From assembly GCA_019752115.1 (NCBI GenBank), contig JAIEMN010000020.1, positions 202,267 through 261,645 of the forward strand: a DNA stretch of 59,379 bases, in the 5' to 3' direction. The translations under genes were made by a program, and so were the position numbers. Within the stretch, counting starts at the first letter, position 1. Each line of letters starts with the position of its first letter. Shown here piece after piece: positions 4,605-58,230 of this stretch. Source of the stretch: Gemmatimonadaceae bacterium (GTDB taxonomy: Bacteria > Gemmatimonadota > Gemmatimonadetes > Gemmatimonadales > Gemmatimonadaceae). A model generated the notes under the pieces. It searched no databases. It was not told the origin of the DNA and saw nothing but the letters and a program-made list of their open reading frames with translations.

Positions 4605-4709
4605 AACCCCCGAGAGCTCAGTGGGCAGAATTTCAGGGGGAAGAGCTCAGGACTGCGGCAGTCCTGAGCTCTTCCCCCTGACGTTCTCCCCCCTGAGCTC
4701 TCGGGGGTT
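4605..4709. repeat. Long two-tier intergenic palindrome (CAGGGGG family)
   Basis: An inner perfect inverted repeat of 24 bp per arm (4633-4656 and 4658-4681) has only one unpaired central base. An outer 17-bp perfect pair (4605-4621 and 4693-4709) begins AACCCCCGAGAGCTCAG. It lies between the receptor start (4490) and the murB stop (4749), both on the minus strand. A weaker hairpin, CGTCTG with CAGACG, follows at about 4720. There is no T-tract, so it is not a standard intrinsic terminator. The 4491-4748 gap holds nothing else I recognise. Confidence 0.9.
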
Positions 4710-13667: not shown

Positions 13668-13800
13668 GAACAGCACGCACAGAGTTCACAGAGAACACAG
13701 TGAACACAGAGGGCACAGCGAACACCAAGGACGACGACATTGCTGAACCGCGGTCCTCTGTGTTCCCTGAGGCCCTCCGTGACCTCTGTGCGAGCAGTTC
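13668..13800. repeat. Long imperfect intergenic palindrome (CACAGAGG family)
   Basis: The arms at about 13668-13712 and 13755-13800 pair imperfectly; the outer ends are GAAC and GTTC. Both are built of short words such as CACAGAG, GAACACAG and their complements. It starts 4 bp after the M16 stop and ends 10 bp before the DUF429 start, so it fills the gap between two co-directional genes. Confidence 0.8.
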
Positions 13801-19302: not shown

Positions 19303-19512
19303 ATGGTCGGTCATCGGACAACTATGGAGGTGGGAGTCGGGATCGGGCACAGACGTGGGGGTCGGAGTGCCGGCGACCAGGTCTTGCTGCGACACAGGCA
19401 TCGCTGTTCAACGGCGACCGTGGCGCCAGCAGGTCGTTCGGAAATTCCACTCCGACCCGGACCTCCGAGCCCGATCCCGACTCCCACCTCCATAGTCGTC
19501 CATAGTCCCTCG
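19303..19512. repeat. Long intergenic palindrome inside the his cluster (GGACAACTATGGA family)
   Basis: The outer blocks are GGACAACTATGGA (19316-19328) and TCCATAGTCGTCC (19489-19501). The inner perfect 17-bp pair is GGGAGTCGGGATCGGGC (19332-19348) with 19469-19485, and further blocks GGGGGTCGGAGTG and CACTCCGACCC pair inside. The apical loop contains CTTGCTGCG (19383-19391), also found in the 55-kb copy. It sits between hisF and hisN, both on the minus strand. Confidence 0.9.
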
Positions 19513-29395: not shown

Positions 29396-29445
29396 GCGGT
29401 CACGGATACTCGTTGTCATCCGTGAGAGTGGGCCGCTCGACTCGC

Positions 29446-29532
29446 ACCGTACTTTAGGAGCCAGGGGGGAGTCGTCAGGGGGAAGTCGTTCACTCCTCCC
29501 TGACTACTCCCCCCTGGCTCCTTAACTACGGT
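29446..29532. repeat. Long palindrome in a convergent gap (CAGGGGG family)
   Basis: The arms 29446-29480 and 29498-29532 are 35 bp and differ at three positions. Core words are AGGAGCCAGGGGGGAGT and GTCAGGG. The short apical loop contains GGAAGTCG. It lies between the HD gene stop (29395, plus) and the ispG stop (29574, minus). It resembles the 4605-4709 element in word content (CAGGGGGAAG). Confidence 0.9.
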
Positions 29533-29573
29533 GCGTGTGACCAGCATACCCGCGCGGTGCGCGCGTTCGCCCG

Positions 29574-36744: not shown

Positions 36745-37050
36745 TCCGACTTCCGACCTCGGAATCGGAGGTCGGTTGTCGGACAACTATGGACGGTCGG
36801 AGTCGGGATTCTTGTCGGACAATCGGGGTCGGCTTGCCGGGGGCTGGAGCCTGCTGCGCTCCGGGGGGCGGAGTGCCCTGGCTCGGCGCTTTGCGCCTTG
36901 CTCGGGCGGTCGGAGGTCTGGACAGGCGGAGCGCAGCACGCGCTCGCCCCGGGCAAGCCGACCCCCACCTCCGAGCCCGATCCCGATTCCCACTGTCCAT
37001 AGTTGTCCGACAACCGACCTCCGATGCCGACGTCGGACGTTGGAAGTGGG
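36745..37050. repeat. Very long intergenic palindrome between argR and argH (GGACAACTATGGA family)
   Basis: The outer 13-mer GGACAACTATGGA (36781-36793) pairs exactly with TCCATAGTTGTCC (36996-37008), extended outward by GTCGGTTGTC and GACAACCGAC. The inner GGGGTCGGCTTGCC (36825-36838) pairs with 36952-36965. The whole structure spans about 300 bp with arms of about 130 bp and several internal mismatched stretches. It fills the 327-bp gap between argR and argH. Confidence 0.9.
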
Positions 37051-43270: not shown

Positions 43271-43388
43271 AGAGGTGAGGTCTCGCACAGAGGCACAGAG
43301 GGCCACAGCGGTGCACGGAGAACAACTTTTCAAAAATGTTGTCTCTGTGTATCTCTGTGGCCCTCTGTGCCTCTGTGCGAGACCTCTG
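43271..43388. repeat. Long palindrome filling a convergent gap (CACAGAGG family)
   Basis: Perfect 31-bp arms at 43278-43308 and 43355-43385 are built of CACAGAGG and CACAGAGGG words. An inner hairpin is formed by GAGAACAAC and GTTGTCTC around a T/A-rich loop. It spans nearly the whole 130-bp gap between the Smr gene stop (43264, plus) and the lipoprotein stop (43395, minus). Confidence 0.92.
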
Positions 43389-48131: not shown

Positions 48132-48917
48132 ATGCCCGAGTTTGGAAGCTGGGGAGCCGACTGGTGGAAGCCGGTGGTGTTCGTCATGATCGCTGGCCAC
48201 CTCACCAACATTTGCGTCACGCTGTTCCTGCATCGCGGGCAGACGCATCGTGGCGTGGTCTTTTCGCGCCTGGTCGAAGTGCCGATGCGCGTGTGGCTGT
48301 GGCTGACGACCGCCATTCGCACCAAGGAATGGGTGGCGTGCCACCGGAAGCATCACGCGTTCGCCGATCGGGAGGGCGATCCGCATAGCCCGGTGGTCGA
48401 CGGGCTCCGCAACATCCTGCTCAAGGGCGCCTTCTACTATCGGAAGGCCGTGCGGCAGCCGGGTGTGCTCGAGAAGTACGGCAAGGGCACGCCCGATGAC
48501 TTCCTCGAGCGGCATCTGCTCGACAAGCGCTCGAGCGTGGGCATCGTGCTGATGCTCGCCATCGACATCTATCTGTTCGGCTGGTTCACCGGCCCGGTGG
48601 TGTGGGCGGTGCAGATGATCTGGATCCCGTTCTGGGCCGCCGGCGTCATCAACGGCATCGGCCACGCACTCGGCTACCGCAACCACGATGTGAAGGACGA
48701 GAGCCGCAACATCTCGCCCTTCGGGATCATCATTGCCGGCGAAGAGCTGCACAACAACCACCACGCCGACCCGCACAGCGCCAAGTTCGCGCACCGCTGG
48801 TTCGAGTTCGACATCGGCTGGATGTACATCAAGCTGCTCTCGCTCTTCGGCCTCGCCGAAGTGAAGTACGCCCGCGTGGGCGAACACGTCCGCATCGCCG
48901 AGACCATCGATGGCTGA
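48132..48917 (+). CDS. Membrane fatty acid desaturase
   Basis: 261 residues from the ATG at 48132, with GGAG 6 bp upstream. Three histidine boxes are present: HRGQTH (34-39), HRKHH (71-75) and HNNHH (near 215), which hold the di-iron centre of acyl-CoA or acyl-lipid delta-9-type desaturases. Hydrophobic segments flank them. The last codons overlap the start of the YggX-like gene by 8 bp. The position of double-bond insertion cannot be told. Confidence 0.93.
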   Translation: MPEFGSWGADWWKPVVFVMIAGHLTNICVTLFLHRGQTHRGVVFSRLVEVPMRVWLWLTTAIRTKEWVACHRKHHAFADREGDPHSPVVDGLRNILLKGAFYYRKAVRQPGVLEKYGKGTPDDFLERHLLDKRSSVGIVLMLAIDIYLFGWFTGPVVWAVQMIWIPFWAAGVINGIGHALGYRNHDVKDESRNISPFGIIIAGEELHNNHHADPHSAKFAHRWFEFDIGWMYIKLLSLFGLAEVKYARVGEHVRIAETIDG

Positions 48918-49188
48918 TATCGCCTGCACCCGCTGCGGCCAGACGCGCGAAGGCTTTGAACGTCCGCCGTTCCCCGGCGCGATCGGCACGCGCATCGTGG
49001 GCGAGATCTGCAAGGTCTGCTGGGGCGACTGGCTCAAGCAGCAGACGATGCTGATCAATCACTACGGCCTGAACGTGATGGACCCGCAGGCGCGGCAGTT
49101 CCTCACGCGGAACATGGAAGCGTTCCTGTTCAAGGCGCCGGGCGGGGAGAATGTGGACACGACGAAGCAGGGGACGATCAACTGGTAA
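48910..49188 (+). CDS. YggX-like Fe(2+)-trafficking / oxidative damage protection protein
   Basis: 92 residues. IGTRIVGEICKVCWGDWLKQ and QTMLINHYGLNVMDPQARQF match the conserved core of YggX. The N-terminus adds a Cys pair (ACTRCGQ), and a third and fourth Cys are in ICKVCW; this could make a metal site absent from the enterobacterial protein, which has one N-terminal Cys. It overlaps the desaturase gene by 8 bp, so iron supply to the di-iron enzyme is a reasonable inference. Confidence 0.85.
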   Translation: MADIACTRCGQTREGFERPPFPGAIGTRIVGEICKVCWGDWLKQQTMLINHYGLNVMDPQARQFLTRNMEAFLFKAPGGENVDTTKQGTINW

Positions 49189-49198
49189 GCCGGCTTTG

Positions 49199-49311
49199 AA
49201 CTGATCGGTTTGGGGTTTGGGGTTGCTGGTTTGGGGTTGTCGGGTTGAACAACCCCGAACCCTACCCGTGGACCCCAAACCTTAAGACCCCGCACCCCAA
49301 ACTGATCGGTT
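49199..49311. repeat. Intergenic palindrome with identical 12-bp ends (TTTGGGG family)
   Basis: The element begins AACTGATCGGTTTGGGG (49199-49215) and ends CCCCAAACTGATCGGTT (49295-49311), so the near-palindromic AACTGATCGGTT is present at both ends in the same orientation. Arms of GGTTTGGGG-type words pair imperfectly, with an inner hairpin around GGGTTGAACAACCC. It starts 11 bp after the YggX stop and abuts the next terminator. Confidence 0.85.
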
Positions 49312-49350
49312 AAAAAAACGCCGCGCCGAGTTCACAGACTCGGCGCGGCG
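49312..49350 (-). terminator. Intrinsic terminator of the small zinc-ribbon gene
   Basis: On the minus strand a perfect 12-bp stem CGCCGCGCCGAG (49350-49339 with 49330-49319) and an 8-nt loop are followed by seven T residues (complement of 49312-49318). It lies about 55 bp after the stop of the minus-strand zinc-ribbon gene. Confidence 0.9.
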
Positions 49351-49404
49351 TCCTACTTCGGGGTGGTGGTCCTGCTCTCGCTGGGGAGTCGAGATCGTGC
49401 GTGT

Positions 49405-49614
49405 TCAGTTCACGCCGGCGATGTAGCGGGCCAGTCGCCCGCACTCGGCGCACTTGAGTGTGACGTGCGAATGCGGTGGCGGCGGATGCACCACCGGATC
49501 ACGCTGAATCGTGCCTGAGCAGGATGGGCAGCTCAGTGGAAGTCCCGTGCGGTCGCTGGCGATCAGGTGCAGCGCCTGGGCGGGATTGTACGTGTTCGGG
49601 CGTGGCTTACGCAT
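49405..49614 (-). CDS. Small zinc-ribbon-like protein
   Basis: 69 residues from the ATG at 49612-49614, with GGAGG 7 bp upstream. Two Cys pairs, LSCPSCSG and LKCAECGRLA, are about 27 residues apart and could bind one zinc. The segment between them is Pro/His-rich (HPPPPHSH). No family is recognised. It has its own strong terminator, so it appears to be an independent transcript. Confidence 0.7.
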   Translation of the reverse strand: MRKPRPNTYNPAQALHLIASDRTGLPLSCPSCSGTIQRDPVVHPPPPHSHVTLKCAECGRLARYIAGVN

Positions 49615-49650
49615 CCAACAGCCTCCGTTGCGTAATGACTGTCGCACCAC

Positions 49651-49866
49651 TGGGGAAGGGGCGACGCGCGAAAGCTATATACGCCTGATTTGGTCTTAAA
49701 GCGCTCCGCGTACTATTGCGGAGGCGCTGTAACCATCAACTGCTCATTTAGACGGATTTTCGCTAGGACTCACCGGTCTCGAAATGCTCGGACTGAGTAC
49801 CTGTACCCCAGTTCATTGGACCGCTCGGTACTAATTTGGGATTAGCCGGTTATGCCACAGGCTGGC
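49651..49866. other. Non-coding stretch of lower GC with hairpins
   Basis: About 215 bp between the zinc-ribbon gene and the YhaM-like gene, clearly less GC-rich than its surroundings. It contains AGCGCTCCGC and GCGGAGGCGCT (49697-49729), which form a hairpin with one bulge, TATATA (49675-49680, either strand) and several short self-complementary runs (GTACCTGTAC). It would hold the zinc-ribbon promoter on the minus strand. A small RNA is possible but unproven. Confidence 0.4.
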
Positions 49867-50868
49867 TCAGTCCCACGGCGCCGGGCGGCGCCAGATCCGG
49901 CGCGAGAGCCGCCAGGAGCGCTTGGCCGACATCTCGTTGGTCTCGCCGGGCGGGAACAGCTCCGCATCGCGGTATTCGTCGATGAAATCGGTGGCCTTCG
50001 CGCTCGCTTCGTCGGCCCAGTGCACGATCTCCGCTTCGGTCGTCATCGGCTGCACCGGGCTCCCGAACTCCAGCGCACCGTGATGCGACAGAATGAAGTG
50101 CAGCAGCTCATCGCGCTGCGCGTCGGTGAAGGGCACGCGGCTGTCGCGCAGGCGGCGATCGAACATCAGCGCGCCAAGCGTGACGTGGCCGAGGAGCATG
50201 CCGGTGGTGGTGTGCGAGAAGCCCTCGGGGTTCACGGCGTACGCCTCGACCTTGCCGATGTCGTGCAGCATGGCGCCGGCGATGACCAGATCCTGATCGG
50301 CTTTGCGCACGGTGCGCGCGATGTAGCGCGCGATGTCGGTCACTTCGAAGACATGCAGCAGCAGCCCACCGAGCTGCGCGTGATGCCCGTTCACCGCGCC
50401 CGGCGTGCGCTCGAACTGCACACGAAAGGCGTCGTCGGCAAAGAAGAGATCCACGGCGGCGCGCACGCGCGCTGACTTGATGCTGCCGCGCAGTTTGTCG
50501 AGCGCGTCCCAGACCTGTTCGGTGGGCGCATCGATGCGCGGCAGAAACGCGGTCGGATCGAACTGCTCAGGGAGCAGCACGCGGAGGGGCGCCTTGAGGT
50601 CGAGCTGCCGGCGGCGCGCGCCGGCGTCGCCGAACATCGCGACTTCGCCGATGACGGCCACGACCTTGCCCTTCTCCGCGCCTTGGGCCCACTCGAGCCG
50701 CTCCGACCAGATCGGCGCGGTCTCGATCACGCCCGTGCTGTTGGCGAGCGTCAACACGACAAAGGGATTGCCGGTCCGAGTGACCTTTTCGGCGCGGTCG
50801 CGGACGAGGAACTCCTGTTCGACGCGGGTGCCCACGGGCGCCTGCGCGAGGCTGATCGGGTGAGACAT
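49867..50868 (-). CDS. YhaM-like 3-prime-5-prime exoribonuclease
   Basis: 333 residues, the domain order of YhaM/CBF1: an N-terminal OB fold (EQEFLVRDRAEKVTRTGNPF, VIGEVAMFG) and a C-terminal HD domain (LGGLLLHVFEVTDIA, IAGAMLHDIGKVEAY, FILSHHGALEFG). YhaM enzymes degrade RNA and single-stranded DNA with manganese. No neighbouring gene suggests a dedicated substrate. The C-terminal 20 residues are basic (RSWRLSRRIWRR). Confidence 0.9.
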   Translation of the reverse strand: MSHPISLAQAPVGTRVEQEFLVRDRAEKVTRTGNPFVVLTLANSTGVIETAPIWSERLEWAQGAEKGKVVAVIGEVAMFGDAGARRRQLDLKAPLRVLLPEQFDPTAFLPRIDAPTEQVWDALDKLRGSIKSARVRAAVDLFFADDAFRVQFERTPGAVNGHHAQLGGLLLHVFEVTDIARYIARTVRKADQDLVIAGAMLHDIGKVEAYAVNPEGFSHTTTGMLLGHVTLGALMFDRRLRDSRVPFTDAQRDELLHFILSHHGALEFGSPVQPMTTEAEIVHWADEASAKATDFIDEYRDAELFPPGETNEMSAKRSWRLSRRIWRRPAPWD

Positions 50869-50994
50869 GGCTGAAAGATGGCGGGCGGCGTCACCGCGCC
50901 GTTAGCGGCGGGCGTCCAGCCGGGGCCCGCCGGGGGGGTCGGCCCTTGCGCCCGCCCCTCGACCGGGAGAGCGTTAATCAACTCTCTCAGCGCT

Positions 50995-51516
50995 ATGGCT
51001 ACTTCGACTCGTCCCATCCCCGACACCAAGGCCGTTCGGCCCGGTGGACACGCGCCCGACGTCAATGACGCCGAGCTGGCTGCCCTGCGGCTGTTCATCA
51101 TCATGTCGCGCGCCCATACGGCGGTCACCGCGCACGCCGCGGCGGATATCGCCAAGCATGGGCTGACGCTCGCCGAGTTCGGGATTCTGGAGGCGCTGTA
51201 CCATCGGGGGCCGATGCTGCTGGGCGAAGTGCAGAAGCGCATTCTCGTCTCGAGCGGCGGCATCACCTTCCTCGTGGACCGGCTCACGGCCAAGGGGCTC
51301 GTGGAGCGCCAGACCTGCGAGAGCGACCGCCGGGCGCGCTATGCCGCCCTCACGGAGAAGGGCACGACACTGGTGCGGGAGATCTTCCCCAGCCACGCCG
51401 CGGTGCTCACCCGGGCCCTGTCGGGGCTGTCGGTGGACGAACAGAAGGCGGTGACGGCCATGATCAAGACCATGGGGCTCGCCGCCGCCTCGATGCCGCT
51501 CCCCGACCAGGGCTGA
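50995..51516 (+). CDS. MarR family transcriptional regulator
   Basis: 173 residues from the ATG at 50995. After a disordered N-terminus of about 25 residues comes the MarR winged helix: GLTLAEFGILEALYHRGPML, EVQKRILVSSGGITFLVDRL and the wing ERQTCESDRRARYAALTEKG. Helices at both ends form the dimer. A GAGAG/CTCTC repeat lies just upstream of its ATG (50966-50988). The downstream YceI gene is often found beside MarR genes and may be its target. Confidence 0.92.
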   Translation: MATSTRPIPDTKAVRPGGHAPDVNDAELAALRLFIIMSRAHTAVTAHAAADIAKHGLTLAEFGILEALYHRGPMLLGEVQKRILVSSGGITFLVDRLTAKGLVERQTCESDRRARYAALTEKGTTLVREIFPSHAAVLTRALSGLSVDEQKAVTAMIKTMGLAAASMPLPDQG

Positions 51517-51531
51517 GCGGGGCCTTTCCCG

Positions 51532-51559
51532 AAAAAGCGCTCTTGACGGGCGCTTTTTT
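51532..51559 (+). terminator. Intrinsic terminator of the marR-type gene
   Basis: AAAAAGCGC (51532-51540) pairs perfectly with GCGCTTTTT (51550-51558) over a 9-nt loop, ending in six T residues. It starts 15 bp after the stop codon. Confidence 0.9.
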
Positions 51560-51571
51560 GTTGGGTATAAT
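51543..51571 (+). promoter_or_regulatory. Sigma70 promoter of the YceI gene, embedded in the terminator
   Basis: TTGACG (51543-51548), a 17-bp spacer and a perfect TATAAT (51566-51571). The -35 box lies in the terminator loop and the spacer is its 3-prime arm and T-run. Downstream, GAGAT-N5-ATCTC (51583-51597) could be an operator near the transcript start. Confidence 0.85.
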
Positions 51572-51620
51572 ACTCACAGCTGAGATAAACGATCTCCAAC
51601 AACTCCTAAGTGAGGTTCCT

Positions 51621-52145
51621 ATGCTGTGGCACTTCGACCCCGCGCACTCCCAGATCCAGTTCTCCGTGAAGCACATGGGCATCTCCACCGTGCGCGGCAC
51701 GTTCCAGGCCTTCACCGGCGAGATCGATGAGCAGGACGGCCAGGTGAAGACGGTCTCGGTGGACATCGATGTCGCGAGCCTCAGCACGGCCAACGAGCAG
51801 CGCGACGGCCACCTCAAGAGCCCGGACTTCTTCGACGTGGCGACCTACCCCACCGCGAGGTTCGTGCTCACGCAGTTCACGCGCGCGGGCGACGACGTCA
51901 CCGCCACCGGCGACCTGACGATCCGCGGCGTGACCAAGCCGGTCACCTTGAAGGGCGAAATCGGCGGCCCGGCCAAGGATCCGTGGGGGAACGAGAAGGT
52001 CTCGGCGGTGCTCGAGACCAAGATCAGCCGCAAGGAGTTCGGCCTCACCTGGAACGTGGCGCTCGAAGCGGGCGGCGTGCTGGTGAGCGATGAGGTGAAG
52101 CTGCATATCGACGTGCAGGCGGCGGTGGCCGTCGCGGCAGCGTAA
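51621..52145 (+). CDS. YceI-like lipocalin-fold protein
   Basis: 174 residues from the ATG at 51621, with GAGG upstream. WHFDPAHSQIQFSVKHMGIS and GTFQAFTGEI open the YceI fold; KSPDFFDVATYPTARFVLTQ and DLTIRGVTKPVTL are its conserved core. YceI proteins bind long isoprenoid or lipid molecules in a beta-barrel. Unlike many, it has no signal peptide, so it is probably cytoplasmic. A strong promoter precedes it and a 56-bp perfect palindrome follows 15 bp after the stop. Confidence 0.93.
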   Translation: MLWHFDPAHSQIQFSVKHMGISTVRGTFQAFTGEIDEQDGQVKTVSVDIDVASLSTANEQRDGHLKSPDFFDVATYPTARFVLTQFTRAGDDVTATGDLTIRGVTKPVTLKGEIGGPAKDPWGNEKVSAVLETKISRKEFGLTWNVALEAGGVLVSDEVKLHIDVQAAVAVAAA

Positions 52146-52230
52146 AACCCGTCAACCCCGAACCCTATAACACCAAACCCCAAACTGATCAGTTTGGGGT
52201 TTGGTGTTATAGGGTTTGGAGTTCTTGGGT
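52144..52230. repeat. Zero-loop perfect palindrome in a convergent gap (TTTGGGG family)
   Basis: A perfect 56-bp palindrome (28-bp arms, 52161-52216) is centred on TGATCA with no loop. The half-arm reads AACCCTATAACACC then AAACCCCAAACTGA. Outer words AAAACCC and GGGTTTT extend the pairing. It fills the 87-bp gap between the YceI stop (plus) and the propeller lipoprotein stop (minus). Confidence 0.95.
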
Positions 52231-52232
52231 TT

Positions 52233-53315
52233 TTACTTCTTCCAGTCCGCAACGAAGAGGTTCGTTTCCGTCGCGATCTTGTCATGCCGATTGCTCGCCC
52301 AGAGCAGCTTCTTGCCATCGGGGCTGAACATCGGGAAGCCGTCGAAGACGGGGCTCGTCGTGATCTGCTCGAGGCCGGTGCCGTCGAGGTTCACGACGTA
52401 GAGATCGAAGTTGCCGCTGCGCGGATTCTTGTGATTGCTCGAGAAGATGATCTGCTTGCCGTCGGGGGTCCATGACGGGCCGAAGTTCGCACCACCGAGC
52501 TTGGTGATCTGGCGTTGGTTGCTGCCGTCGGCGTTCATGACGAACAGCTCCATGCGGTTCGGGCGGATCATGCGCTTCTTGAGCAGATCCTTGTACGCCT
52601 GCAGGTCCTTGTCGTTGTCGTAGTGCCAGGCGCGGTAGACGATCTGCTTGTCATCGGGGCTCCACCACGGGCCGCCGTCGTAGCCGGGCGTCGTGGTGAG
52701 GCGCTTCATGTCGGTACCGTCGACATTCATCGTGTAGATGTCGAGGTCACCGTCCTTGAGGCTCGTGAACACGATCTTCTTGCCATCGTGGCTGAGCACG
52801 CCCTCGGCGGTGTACACGCCGAAGTTCGTGAGGCGCTTCATGTCCTTGCCATCGATGCCGACGGTGTAGATGTCGTACGGATCGATGCCCCACACGTAGC
52901 CGTTGCTCGGATCGGGCTTGGGCGGGCAGGCCGTATCGGCGGCGTGCGTGGCGCCAAAGAAAAGGCGCTTGGTGCCCGGCAGGAACCAGCCGCAGGTCGT
53001 CTTGCCGCCGCGCGAGACCTTGGTGAGGCCGCTGCCATCGGCGTTCATCACGTACTGCTGATCGCAGGTGCGGCCGTCCCGCGTGCTCTGGAAGGTGATC
53101 ATCTTGCCGTCGGCGCTCCAATACGCTTCGGCGTTCTCGCCGCCGTTGGTGAGCTGCACGAGGTTGGACAGATGACGCTCGCCCGAATCGGGGGCGACGG
53201 CGATGCGGGTGGTGCCGTTGAGGGCCGGAGCGGCGGTGGCCGCCGGGCGGCTGGAGCTCGAGCACGCGGCGACCGTCGCGACCAGCGCGGCGCCGAGGAT
53301 CAGGGGACGGGTCAT
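52233..53315 (-). CDS. PD40/TolB-like beta-propeller lipoprotein
   Basis: 360 residues. The N-terminus ends in ATVAAC, a lipobox with Cys18. Six PD40-type repeats follow, each with the xxWSPDGKxI pattern: YWSADGKMITFQST, LSHDGKKIVFTSLKDGD, WSPDDKQIVYRAW, WTPDGKQIIFSSN and FSPDGKKLLWASN. DIYTMNVDGTDMKRLT is the typical strand pair between them. Such proteins resemble the C-terminal half of TolB but here lack its N-domain. The role is unknown. Confidence 0.88.
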   Translation of the reverse strand: MTRPLILGAALVATVAACSSSSRPAATAAPALNGTTRIAVAPDSGERHLSNLVQLTNGGENAEAYWSADGKMITFQSTRDGRTCDQQYVMNADGSGLTKVSRGGKTTCGWFLPGTKRLFFGATHAADTACPPKPDPSNGYVWGIDPYDIYTVGIDGKDMKRLTNFGVYTAEGVLSHDGKKIVFTSLKDGDLDIYTMNVDGTDMKRLTTTPGYDGGPWWSPDDKQIVYRAWHYDNDKDLQAYKDLLKKRMIRPNRMELFVMNADGSNQRQITKLGGANFGPSWTPDGKQIIFSSNHKNPRSGNFDLYVVNLDGTGLEQITTSPVFDGFPMFSPDGKKLLWASNRHDKIATETNLFVADWKK

Positions 53316-53404
53316 ATCAGAGCAGGAGGGGCGGAAATACGGATGGGGAGAACCGTATCGCGGGATGGAGGGGCCGCCAATCAGGGATTTTACCTAGAGA
53401 CCAA

Positions 53405-53497
53405 ACCCGAAACCCCATCCCGAAACCCAAACCCCAAACTGATCGGTTCGCAGACCTGATCAGTTTGGGGTTTGGGTTTCGGGATGGGGTTTCGGGT
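53405..53497. repeat. Perfect 40-bp-arm intergenic palindrome (TTTGGGG family)
   Basis: The arms 53405-53444 and 53458-53497 are perfectly complementary over 40 bp with a 13-nt loop. The arm is made of ACCCGAAACCCCATCCCG and AAACCCAAACCCC, then AAACTGATC. It contains AACTGATCGGTT (53437-53448), the core shared with the 49.2-kb copy. It lies between ctpA and the propeller gene, both on the minus strand, 4 bp after the ctpA stop. Confidence 0.95.
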
Positions 53498-53500
53498 AGG

Positions 53501-55108
53501 CTAATTCCCGCTCTTCTTCACCGGCGCCTTGGCCACCGGCATCGCCGTGCCGGCCACCGTGAACAGATCCTTCTGGGTCGTGCTCTTCTTCATGAGCTCG
53601 AGCGCCTTGCGGAGCTGGTTGTCGTCCTTGAGGCTGCGGCGGCGAACCAACGTGTCACCGAAGGCCACCTTGGCGACGCGCTCTTCGACGTAGCGGTCCA
53701 CGTCCGTCGCGCCGGCGTCCCAGACGGTCTTGTCGATCTTCACGGTGTCGGCGACGAGCTTCTGCCACACCTGATCGCGCCAGGCGGTGTTGTACGTGAA
53801 GGTCGGCGTCACCTTCCCCTTCTGCGCTTCGGCCACGGCCGACACCGCGTTCAGGTACTTCTGAATGTTCGGCGCGAGCTGGCGGCGGAGCTGCTGCTCG
53901 GGGGTGGTGAGCGTATCGGGCGGCACGATCACGTCCGGCGTGATGGCGCCACCGCCGTAGAGCGTGCGGCCGGCCGCGCTCTTGAACGTCGGGCGCGCCT
54001 TGCGGACGGAGTCGGTCTCCATCGAATCGGGCAGGACCTCGAGGAACTGGCCATCAGCCGTGAACTTGCGCTCCTTCTGAATGGAGCGGCCGCTCGGCGT
54101 GTACCACTTGCCGGTCGTGATCTTGAGGGCGTAGCCGCCATCGAGATTGTAGACGCTCTGCACGAGTCCCTTGCCGAAGCTGGTCGTGCCGAGGACGAGC
54201 GCGCGGTCGTAGTCCTGCAGCGCGCCGGTCACGATCTCCGACGCCGACGCCGAGCCACCATCGACCATGACGATGAGCGGGATGTCGGGCATGAGCGGAT
54301 CGACCTGCGCGACGTACTTCTCGAACTCGCCGCGGCCGCGCACCGAGAGCAGTTCCTTCCCCTTGGGGAGGAAGAGATTGGACATCGAGAACGCTTCCTC
54401 GAGAATGCCGCCGGGGTTGCCGCGGAGGTCGAGGATGATGCCCTTGGCGCCCTGCTTCACGAGCGCCTTGGTGTTGTTGACGATGTCTTCGGTGGTCTGC
54501 TCGGAGAAGCGCGTGAGCGGGATGTACCCGGTCTTCTCGTCGAGCATCATGGCGTACGGCACGGCCGGGACGTGAATCTCGGCGCGCTTGAAGTTCATCT
54601 TGATGGGCTGGTTCACGCCAAGGCGCAGGAACGTCACCGTGACCGGCGTCCCGATGGGGCCGAGGAGGTGGTTCTGCACTTCCTGCGTGTTGAAGCCGCG
54701 CGCGTTGACGGTGTCGATGATCGCGATGCGATCGCCTTCCTGCACGCCGCCGCCTTCCGCCGGTGAGTTGGGGAAGACCTTGTCGACGATGACGTAGTCG
54801 CCCGACTTCACGATCTGCATGCCGATGCCGGCATAGCGCCCGTTCGTATTGCGCGAGAACTCGGCGAGCTGCTTGGGGGTGAAAAGCTCGGTGTAGGGAT
54901 CGTTGAGCTCCTTCACGAGGCCGCGGGCGGCCTTCTCGTAGAGCATCTGCGCGTCGAGGGTATCCACGTACCGCAGGGCGACGAACGTCAGCACCTGGTC
55001 GAGGAGTTGGGCGCCCCCGCGGGTCTGGCGCTGCTGCAGGGCAAAGCCCGAGGCGACCAGCGGTACGGTGACGAGGGCGGCCAGGGCGGCCATGCGCTTA
55101 CGGGTCAT
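53501..55108 (-). CDS. C-terminal processing peptidase, S41 family
   Basis: 535 residues with an N-terminal membrane or signal segment (MAALAALVTVPLVASGFAL). A PDZ domain spans about 95-175 (YAGIGMQIVKSGDYVIVDKV, VQEGDRIAIID). The protease core has the catalytic Ser in VMVDGGSASASEIVTGAL and Lys in LGTTSFGKGLVQSV. The C-terminal 170 residues are helical. CtpA-type proteases trim or degrade periplasmic proteins, often with an adaptor; none is obvious here. Confidence 0.94.
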   Translation of the reverse strand: MTRKRMAALAALVTVPLVASGFALQQRQTRGGAQLLDQVLTFVALRYVDTLDAQMLYEKAARGLVKELNDPYTELFTPKQLAEFSRNTNGRYAGIGMQIVKSGDYVIVDKVFPNSPAEGGGVQEGDRIAIIDTVNARGFNTQEVQNHLLGPIGTPVTVTFLRLGVNQPIKMNFKRAEIHVPAVPYAMMLDEKTGYIPLTRFSEQTTEDIVNNTKALVKQGAKGIILDLRGNPGGILEEAFSMSNLFLPKGKELLSVRGRGEFEKYVAQVDPLMPDIPLIVMVDGGSASASEIVTGALQDYDRALVLGTTSFGKGLVQSVYNLDGGYALKITTGKWYTPSGRSIQKERKFTADGQFLEVLPDSMETDSVRKARPTFKSAAGRTLYGGGAITPDVIVPPDTLTTPEQQLRRQLAPNIQKYLNAVSAVAEAQKGKVTPTFTYNTAWRDQVWQKLVADTVKIDKTVWDAGATDVDRYVEERVAKVAFGDTLVRRRSLKDDNQLRKALELMKKSTTQKDLFTVAGTAMPVAKAPVKKSGN

Positions 55109-55239
55109 GCGGGTCTCGGTTTGGAGGACCTTGGAAGGTACAGGCTACTTCTAACGTACGCTGAGGATGGACCGCTGTTCCTTGTCGGGGCGGCGGGGGC
55201 CTCGGGCTCTGCGACTGGGATCTGTTCGGATCGGTCGAT

Positions 55240-55450
55240 CAGAAGTCGGACTCGGGACAACTATGGACGATGGGAGTCGGGATCGGGCTCGGAGGTGGGG
55301 GTCGGAGTGGTAGGGATGGGGCTTGCTGCGTGAAGGGCATTTTAAAGCCAGTGTCGAAGCAGAAAGACGCCACCAGTACTCCGACCCCGACTTCCGAGCC
55401 CGATCCCGACTCCCACTGTCCATAGTTGTCCGTAGACCGACGTCCGAGAG
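55240..55450. repeat. Long intergenic palindrome (GGACAACTATGGA family)
   Basis: GGACAACTATGGA (55255-55267) pairs exactly with TCCATAGTTGTCC (55419-55431). The inner GGGAGTCGGGATCGGGCTCGG block (from 55272) pairs with 55381-55414. The 60-nt apical region contains CTTGCTGCG (55322-55330), as in the 19-kb copy. It lies in the 363-bp gap (55109-55471) between the RepA-like gene and ctpA, both minus; the rest of the gap shows nothing I recognise. Confidence 0.92.
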
Positions 55451-55471
55451 AGCGCCGGACGCCGCCTCCCA

Positions 55472-58034: not shown

Positions 58035-58230
58035 TGCTGGCTCGGTGGATTGTGGGGATTGGATGGGGATTCGGTCGGATCTTGGGATAACTGAAACAGC
58101 ATGGGGGATTGAGGGGATCTTGAGGATCTCGGGGATACAACACGAAAAAATGTTGTATCCCTCAATCCCCGAGATCCCCATGATCCCCCATGCTGTTTCA
58201 GTTATCCCCCAATCCCCCCAATCCCCCCAA
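58035..58230. repeat. Long intergenic palindrome (GGGGATT words)
   Basis: The 26-bp arms 58084-58109 and 58183-58208 are perfectly complementary and contain GATAACTGAAACAGCATG. The outer parts consist of GGATTGGGGATT-type and CCCCCCAATCC-type words. The apex is GATACAACA with TGTTGTATC around CGAAAAAA (58134-58160). It lies between the threonine dehydratase stop (58263) and the SEC-C gene start (58014), both on minus. Confidence 0.9.

Follow-up and report, generated by a model that had tools for sequence, protein, structure and literature searches.

Dispersed palindromes at gene 3' ends in Gemmatimonas: a REP/BIME-like family without RAYT, with many probable bidirectional terminators

Results

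Three palindromes situated within 4.3 kb of a Gemmatimonas genome belong to a repeat family with tens of copies, almost limited to this genus, whose members occur in two arrangements and adjoin stop codons, and whose places in related genomes hold other occupants. By sequence comparison, we consider it probable on balance that this is a dispersed, RAYT-less family of the REP/BIME kind, and that many of its copies act as bidirectional terminators.

Genomes and window

The window is the whole analysed stretch of 59,379 nt, positions 202,267–261,645 on the forward strand of contig JAIEMN010000020.1 (assembly GCA_019752115.1, Gemmatimonadaceae bacterium), and its genome is denoted G000. Three other high-copy genomes of the genus are the sister species G001 and G022 and the closed genome G028. 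For gene calling, we used a simple finder whose training sequence was the window. Family copies were mostly collected via an exact match to the core, and hence the constancy of the core is partly built in by ascertainment.

Table 1. Positions of the family copies and of adjacent features.
Feature	Position	Strand	Remarks
Window	G000:C20:202267-261645		G000 is this Gemmatimonas genome (5.17 Mb, 83 contigs)
Fe(2+)-trafficking protein gene (PF04362)	48910-49188	+	
Tail-to-tail copy, 113 bp	49199-49311	none	Core half-sites AACTGATCGGTT at 49199-49210 and 49300-49311; arms G-rich at ~49205-49245, inward on the left, and C-rich at ~49264-49299, inward on the right
Ordinary intrinsic terminator	49311-49351	-	Stem 49318-49331/49338-49351, T7 on the - strand; adjoins the tail-to-tail copy
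YceI-like protein gene (PF04264)	51621-52145	+	TAA stop at the palindrome edge
Head-to-head copy, B type	52144-52233	none	Core AACTGATCAGTT at 52183-52194, at the tip
PD40 beta-propeller (TolB-like) protein gene	52233-53315	-	TAA stop at the palindrome edge
Head-to-head copy, duplicated core	53405-53497	none	AACTGATCGGTT at 53437-53448, ACCTGATCAGTT at 53454-53465
S41 (CtpA/B-type) peptidase gene	53501-55108	-	End adjoins the 53405-53497 copy

Palindromes of the window

All three palindromes were located where a sequence-only reading of the window had placed them (Table 1). The tail-to-tail copy begins 11 nt past the stop of the upstream Fe-trafficking gene. The second copy has 45-nt arms that are 89% complementary and meet without a spacer, and it occupies the entire 87-bp convergent gap between the YceI and PD40 genes; its central 56 bp are perfect, in line with its earlier description as a 56-bp palindrome without a loop. 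The third copy, again with 45-nt arms (96% complementary), is 3–4 nt away from the S41 peptidase gene's stop codon. The inverted-repeat scores of the three copies are 13, 30, and 40, respectively, versus shuffle means of about 7 and shuffle maxima of 12, 10, and 13; thus, the second and third palindromes are far beyond chance. The signal of the first copy is weaker; nonetheless, its two cores and words match the family. Comparison with relatives revealed no C-terminal truncation in the three genes abutting these copies, the PD40 protein being full-length at its C-terminus relative to 28 relatives.

Copy number and taxonomic range

The core AACTGATCAGTT has 48 matches in the 5.17-Mb genome and none in the reversed control, which supports the proposal that the palindromes form one family that arose by copying and not by chance. 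In the genome search suggested at that time, all 46 distinct copies inspected were flanked by G-rich words on one or both sides, and no scatter of cores without such words was seen. Same-genus genomes contain between 0 and 45 cores (e.g., 37 in G001, 45 in G022, and 35 in G028), and each genome outside the genus contains 0–1. An exact scan of 84,980 genomes yielded mainly records from the Gemmatimonas group and a few single matches elsewhere, the latter being, by our own estimate, at about the chance level for 18 fixed bases. Far from being peculiar to this stretch, the core marks a palindrome family that is almost limited to the genus Gemmatimonas. On the PD40 protein tree, high-copy genomes are found in three places (G001 with G022; G028; G000), a distribution that suggests lineage-specific expansions. 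Nothing relevant to Gemmatimonas palindromes was found in the literature searched.

Repeat unit and its two arrangements

The repeat unit consists of a core half-site and a 40-nt arm of approximately five degenerate GRGTTNN heptads. The core has the form AAC(Y)GATC(R)GTT, and the unit opens with six core bases, TCAGTT. Arms of G000 are of the A type (TCAGTT-CAGGGTT-TCGGGTT-TTTGGTC-GTGGGTT-GTGGGT) or of the B type (TCAGTT-TGGGGTT-TGGGGTT-TTAGGGTT-TGGGGTT-CTTGGGTT). TTTGGGG, by which the family had initially been labeled, is confined to B-type arms; the label fits these and not the commoner A type, CAGGGTTTCGGGTTTTTGGTCGTGGGTTGTGGGT. The core is common to G028 and G001, where the heptads differ from those of G000 (TCAGTTcCGGGTtnTGgGTTcGgGTtttGRGT in G028 and TCAGTTtCGaGTTYTGgGTTCagGTTYCGaGT in G001).

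G000 contains 37 head-to-head copies with the core at the tip (21 of A type, 12 of B type, and 4 mixed or shifted) and about nine tail-to-tail copies with the core at both ends, besides a few half or degenerate copies. The window features both forms, tail-to-tail at 49199 and head-to-head at 52144 and 53405. The sequence-only reading had explained this inside-out arrangement by a special event at the core within 4.3 kb; since both arrangements recur genome-wide, the window holds simply the standard pair of forms, and the explanation is not upheld. Nor is the 56-bp palindrome extreme, since in another copy (L044) the perfect stretch spans 88 bp. The accompanying remark that such palindromes are normally unstable in bacteria is weakened by the coexistence of perfect palindromes of 56–88 bp with an SbcD-like protein. 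The latter occurs across the whole genus, in most cases with a score under the curated cut-off, and loss of SbcCD thus finds no support as the explanation for the long palindromes.

In G000, the two arms of a copy resemble each other more than those of shuffled mates (identity 0.873 vs. 0.823, z 5.3, for the A type; 0.821 vs. 0.674, z 4.6, for the B type), the agreement residing mainly in the inner stem. No such excess over random arms was found in G028 or G001. Among 19 orthologous copies in G001 and G022, one-sided changes altering the pairing were observed 82 times and compensated ones 4 times; together with the missing own-mate excess, this argues that pairing is not strongly maintained in G028, G001, and G022. 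Arm mismatches show no clear strand bias toward G-U pairs.

Placement at gene 3' ends

No family copy was called inside a gene of the G000 genome. Of the 45 stop codons that flank head-to-head copies, 31 are situated 39–46 nt from the center, at the arm edge, and the distances to gene starts are scattered between 34 and 573 nt. The flanking stops comprise 29 TAA, 11 TAG, and 5 TGA codons (n = 45), versus 213 TGA, 74 TAG, and 70 TAA genome-wide (n = 357). TAA is thus in excess (p ~2e-9); the AACCC end of the element often completes a TAA. In some tail-to-tail copies (L072, L075, L079) the stop is the TGA within AACTGATC, and some palindromes take in both stop codons (L059, L124).

Convergent gaps harbor 13 of 36 head-to-head copies, compared with 5.5 expected from the number of gaps (p 0.002) and 7.2 from their length (p 0.02), and divergent gaps harbor 4, compared with 8.3–9.4 expected. 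All 13 convergent gaps are 62–114 bp long and are nearly all element. Placement adjoining the stops could mirror only where insertion is tolerated.

Terminator signature and proposed function

The terminator pattern was defined as a hairpin with at least five T in seven positions (5T/7), with a looser version of 4T/6. In A-type arms, positions 19–23 form a T-tract after a 16–18-bp stem, and in many head-to-head copies this holds for both strands. In G000, 20 of the 74 element strands carry the 5T/7 pattern (34 of 74 at 4T/6); at other ends its frequency is 6/56 for convergent, 6/123 for tandem, and 1/100 for divergent ones. In G028 it is rare, with 2 of 23 copies, and in G001 none of 18 copies has it. 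The B-type copies of the window have no strong T-tract, and the consensus scan for terminators called none of the three window copies. From these patterns we infer a terminator role in G000; the case is best for A-type copies, and the role does not extend to the family as a whole.

Each unit represents a half-palindrome; a pair fused at the core yields the head-to-head form, and a pair fused at the far ends the tail-to-tail form. Whichever side a transcript comes from, a head-to-head copy would fold into a long hairpin at the 3' end of the mRNA. In the A type, the inner stem of 16–18 bp followed by the T-tract on both strands would constitute a bidirectional intrinsic terminator, and every copy may provide a 3'-end barrier against nucleases. 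Tail-to-tail copies have an A-tract instead of a T-tract after the stem, and hence they should not terminate transcription.

Corresponding gaps in related genomes

Comparison of the same gaps in relatives, which the sequence-only reading had called for, detected no family copy between the YceI and PD40 genes in 28 same-genus genomes. Most of these contain an ordinary bidirectional terminator hairpin there, in some cases flanked by long inverted arms of G-rich or CACAGAG words; the 87-bp gap of G000 is palindrome only, which would mean that the palindrome took over the place of the usual terminator. Each of the 17 relatives has a terminator in the gap after the Fe-trafficking gene, in most cases AACGCCCC..GGGGCGTT (also written AAACGCCCCG..CGGGGCGTTT). 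G000 retains such a terminator, and the tail-to-tail copy is located between it and the stop. Thus, a head-to-head copy is found in the place of a terminator and a tail-to-tail copy beside one, with one case of each.

At least 23 of the 45 sites in G022 have an orthologous occupied place in G001. Four unshared sites were looked at; at one, the element itself is present and its core is mutated, and in the other three the sister carries a palindrome whose core differs (AGCTCAGAGCTGACCG..CGGTCAGCTCTGAGCT) and whose arms are similar, made of GAGTT words. The slots endure while the occupant changes. These three slots, along with the likeness of own-mate arms in G000, make some recombination between palindromes likely. 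A broader reading, which we put forward tentatively and would not yet favor, is that several unrelated palindrome families of short degenerate words displace ancestral terminators and each other at Gemmatimonas 3' ends, also by core swapping among related species, with termination retained as their role.

Other inverted repeats at gene ends

In 459 kb of G000, long inverted repeats (score of at least 28) are present in 29% of convergent vs. 0% of divergent gaps, and they represent several unrelated word families. Gene-end inverted repeats of CACAGAG words are located at window positions 13668–13800 and 43277–43386 and at L121, L126, and L130; their ends are like GAACAGCTCGCACAGAG, resembling the GAACTGATC ends of the family studied here. 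Another gene-end family, GGACAACTATGGA..GGGAGTCGGGATCGGG, is found at 19316–19501 and 55232–55454, 11–30 nt from the flanking stop. The palindromes at 58065–58227 and at L130:3189–3467 have identical ends, GGGATAAC(T/G)GAAACAGCA, and different inner words (GGGGAT and CACGGAT, respectively), i.e., the interior is swapped and the ends are common. Gene-end families of CAGGGGGGAG / GAGCTCAGG words were observed at 4605–4709 and 29440–29538 as well as at L122, L130, and L131. Inverted repeats with GGCTTGCTGCGCTCCG-like words are situated at 36825–36965 and L128:3672–3962, the former, unlike the others, in a divergent gap.

In several relatives (L106 in G012, L111 in G004, L090 in G005, and L096 in G028), an ordinary terminator hairpin is central to long inverted arms of repeated words, which extend towards both genes. 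Upstream of the PD40 gene in G001 (L113), an assembly gap (a run of N) coincides exactly with the tip of a CACAGAG-type palindrome; hence, draft genomes may understate the number of palindromes of this kind.

Discussion

Comparison with known systems

REP/BIME sequences are likewise found where genes end, occur as head-to-head and tail-to-tail pairs, and can provide flanking genes with their stop codons (PMC3733652, PMC2817692). The Gemmatimonas family is similar in being composed of extragenic dispersed palindromes with tens of copies, in both pair forms, mostly downstream of genes, and in likewise supplying stop codons to flanking genes. It differs in having no GTAG/CGTC tag, no RAYT in high-copy genomes, and no spacer at the core, and its copies are 80–90 bp of heptads, as compared with 20–40 bp for REPs. 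CGTC REPs, too, have no transposase of their own (PMC3733652), and REPs whose distance to a stop is at most 15 nt can influence translation (PMC12306157). Stable stem-loops favor convergent gaps in all bacteria examined (PMC1590033). With the A-tract/T-tract bidirectional terminators described in the same study, the family shares a stem flanked by A/T-tracts, location in convergent gaps, and a distance of up to about 50 bp from stops; in contrast to them, it is repeated, has a fixed core and outer arms, and carries a T-tract in only part of the copies, mainly in this species. The family may be filed as one that works like a REP or a bidirectional terminator and is not a member of the GTAG/CGTC REP superfamilies.

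Origin of the family

A RAYT-driven REP was rejected for the present genomes, as PF01797 (RAYT, Y1 transposase) is missing from all four high-copy genomes (it is present in 8 of 30 genomes of the genus); neither form has a GTAG/CGTC tag in its consensus. A DNA uptake sequence, expected in many single copies also inside genes, does not agree with the strictly extragenic calls. Rfam gave only sub-threshold matches to miRNA hairpins, none at the gathering score, so that a known RNA family was dismissed. An autonomous parent between neighboring copies was not found either, ten nearby genes being ordinary or family-less (creatininase, SRP54, YchF, and others).

A doubtful but serious alternative is that the copies are MITE-like non-autonomous elements with ends GAACTGATCRGTT, mobilized by a hypothetical transposase and inserted harmlessly after stops, their terminator activity being incidental. 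Like MITEs, they are short and non-coding, with terminal-repeat-like ends in the tail-to-tail form (GAACTGATCRGTT at both ends, the TGA stop in L072 and its like being within the repeat); the expansions in G001 with G022, G028, and G000 would fit this origin, as would the occurrence of both geometries at stops, only one of which can form a U-tract terminator. However, the head-to-head form predominates, none of the ten checked genes near copies is a transposase, and no target duplication was seen by eye in the flanks. The 23 or more sites common to the sisters imply that recent movement is rare, the C-termini are intact where three copies abut genes, and the exact placement at stop edges is tighter than tolerance alone predicts. 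We regard it as unlikely that the copies are sites at which a DNA-binding protein (a nucleoid or terminus protein) recognizes the core, AAC(Y)GATC(R)GTT, the arms being secondary. The sharing of the core by species with differing arms would favor this, but that constancy is partly a product of the exact-core search, the slot of a sister species can carry another core, and the position beside stops is set by the arms and not by the core alone. Most improbable is that local template switching makes a palindrome at each gene end, bounded by selection on coding sequences. It would account for the mutual likeness of own-copy arms in G000 and for both stop codons lying inside some palindromes, but a core and heptad arms common to about 50 unrelated loci call for dispersal, and G028 and G001 have no arm-mate excess; equal stops on both sides, seen in 8 of 13 convergent gaps and considered as a trace of palindrome templating, are roughly as frequent as the excess of TAA by itself would make them. 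As the only source of the palindromes, template switching is thus disfavored; copies already in place could still be subject to it.

Implications

The reading we prefer, a dispersed REP/BIME-like family with probable terminators among its copies, would add a REP-like family with neither tag nor known transposase, none having been described for Gemmatimonadota in the literature searched. One clear case is provided of a conserved terminator position occupied by a repeat. The sister pair G001/G022 and G028, whose genome is closed, make both the replacement of terminators by repeats and the swapping of palindrome cores testable. If palindrome families indeed displace terminators and each other in enduring slots, much of the termination in a genome would rest on repeated elements that turn over.
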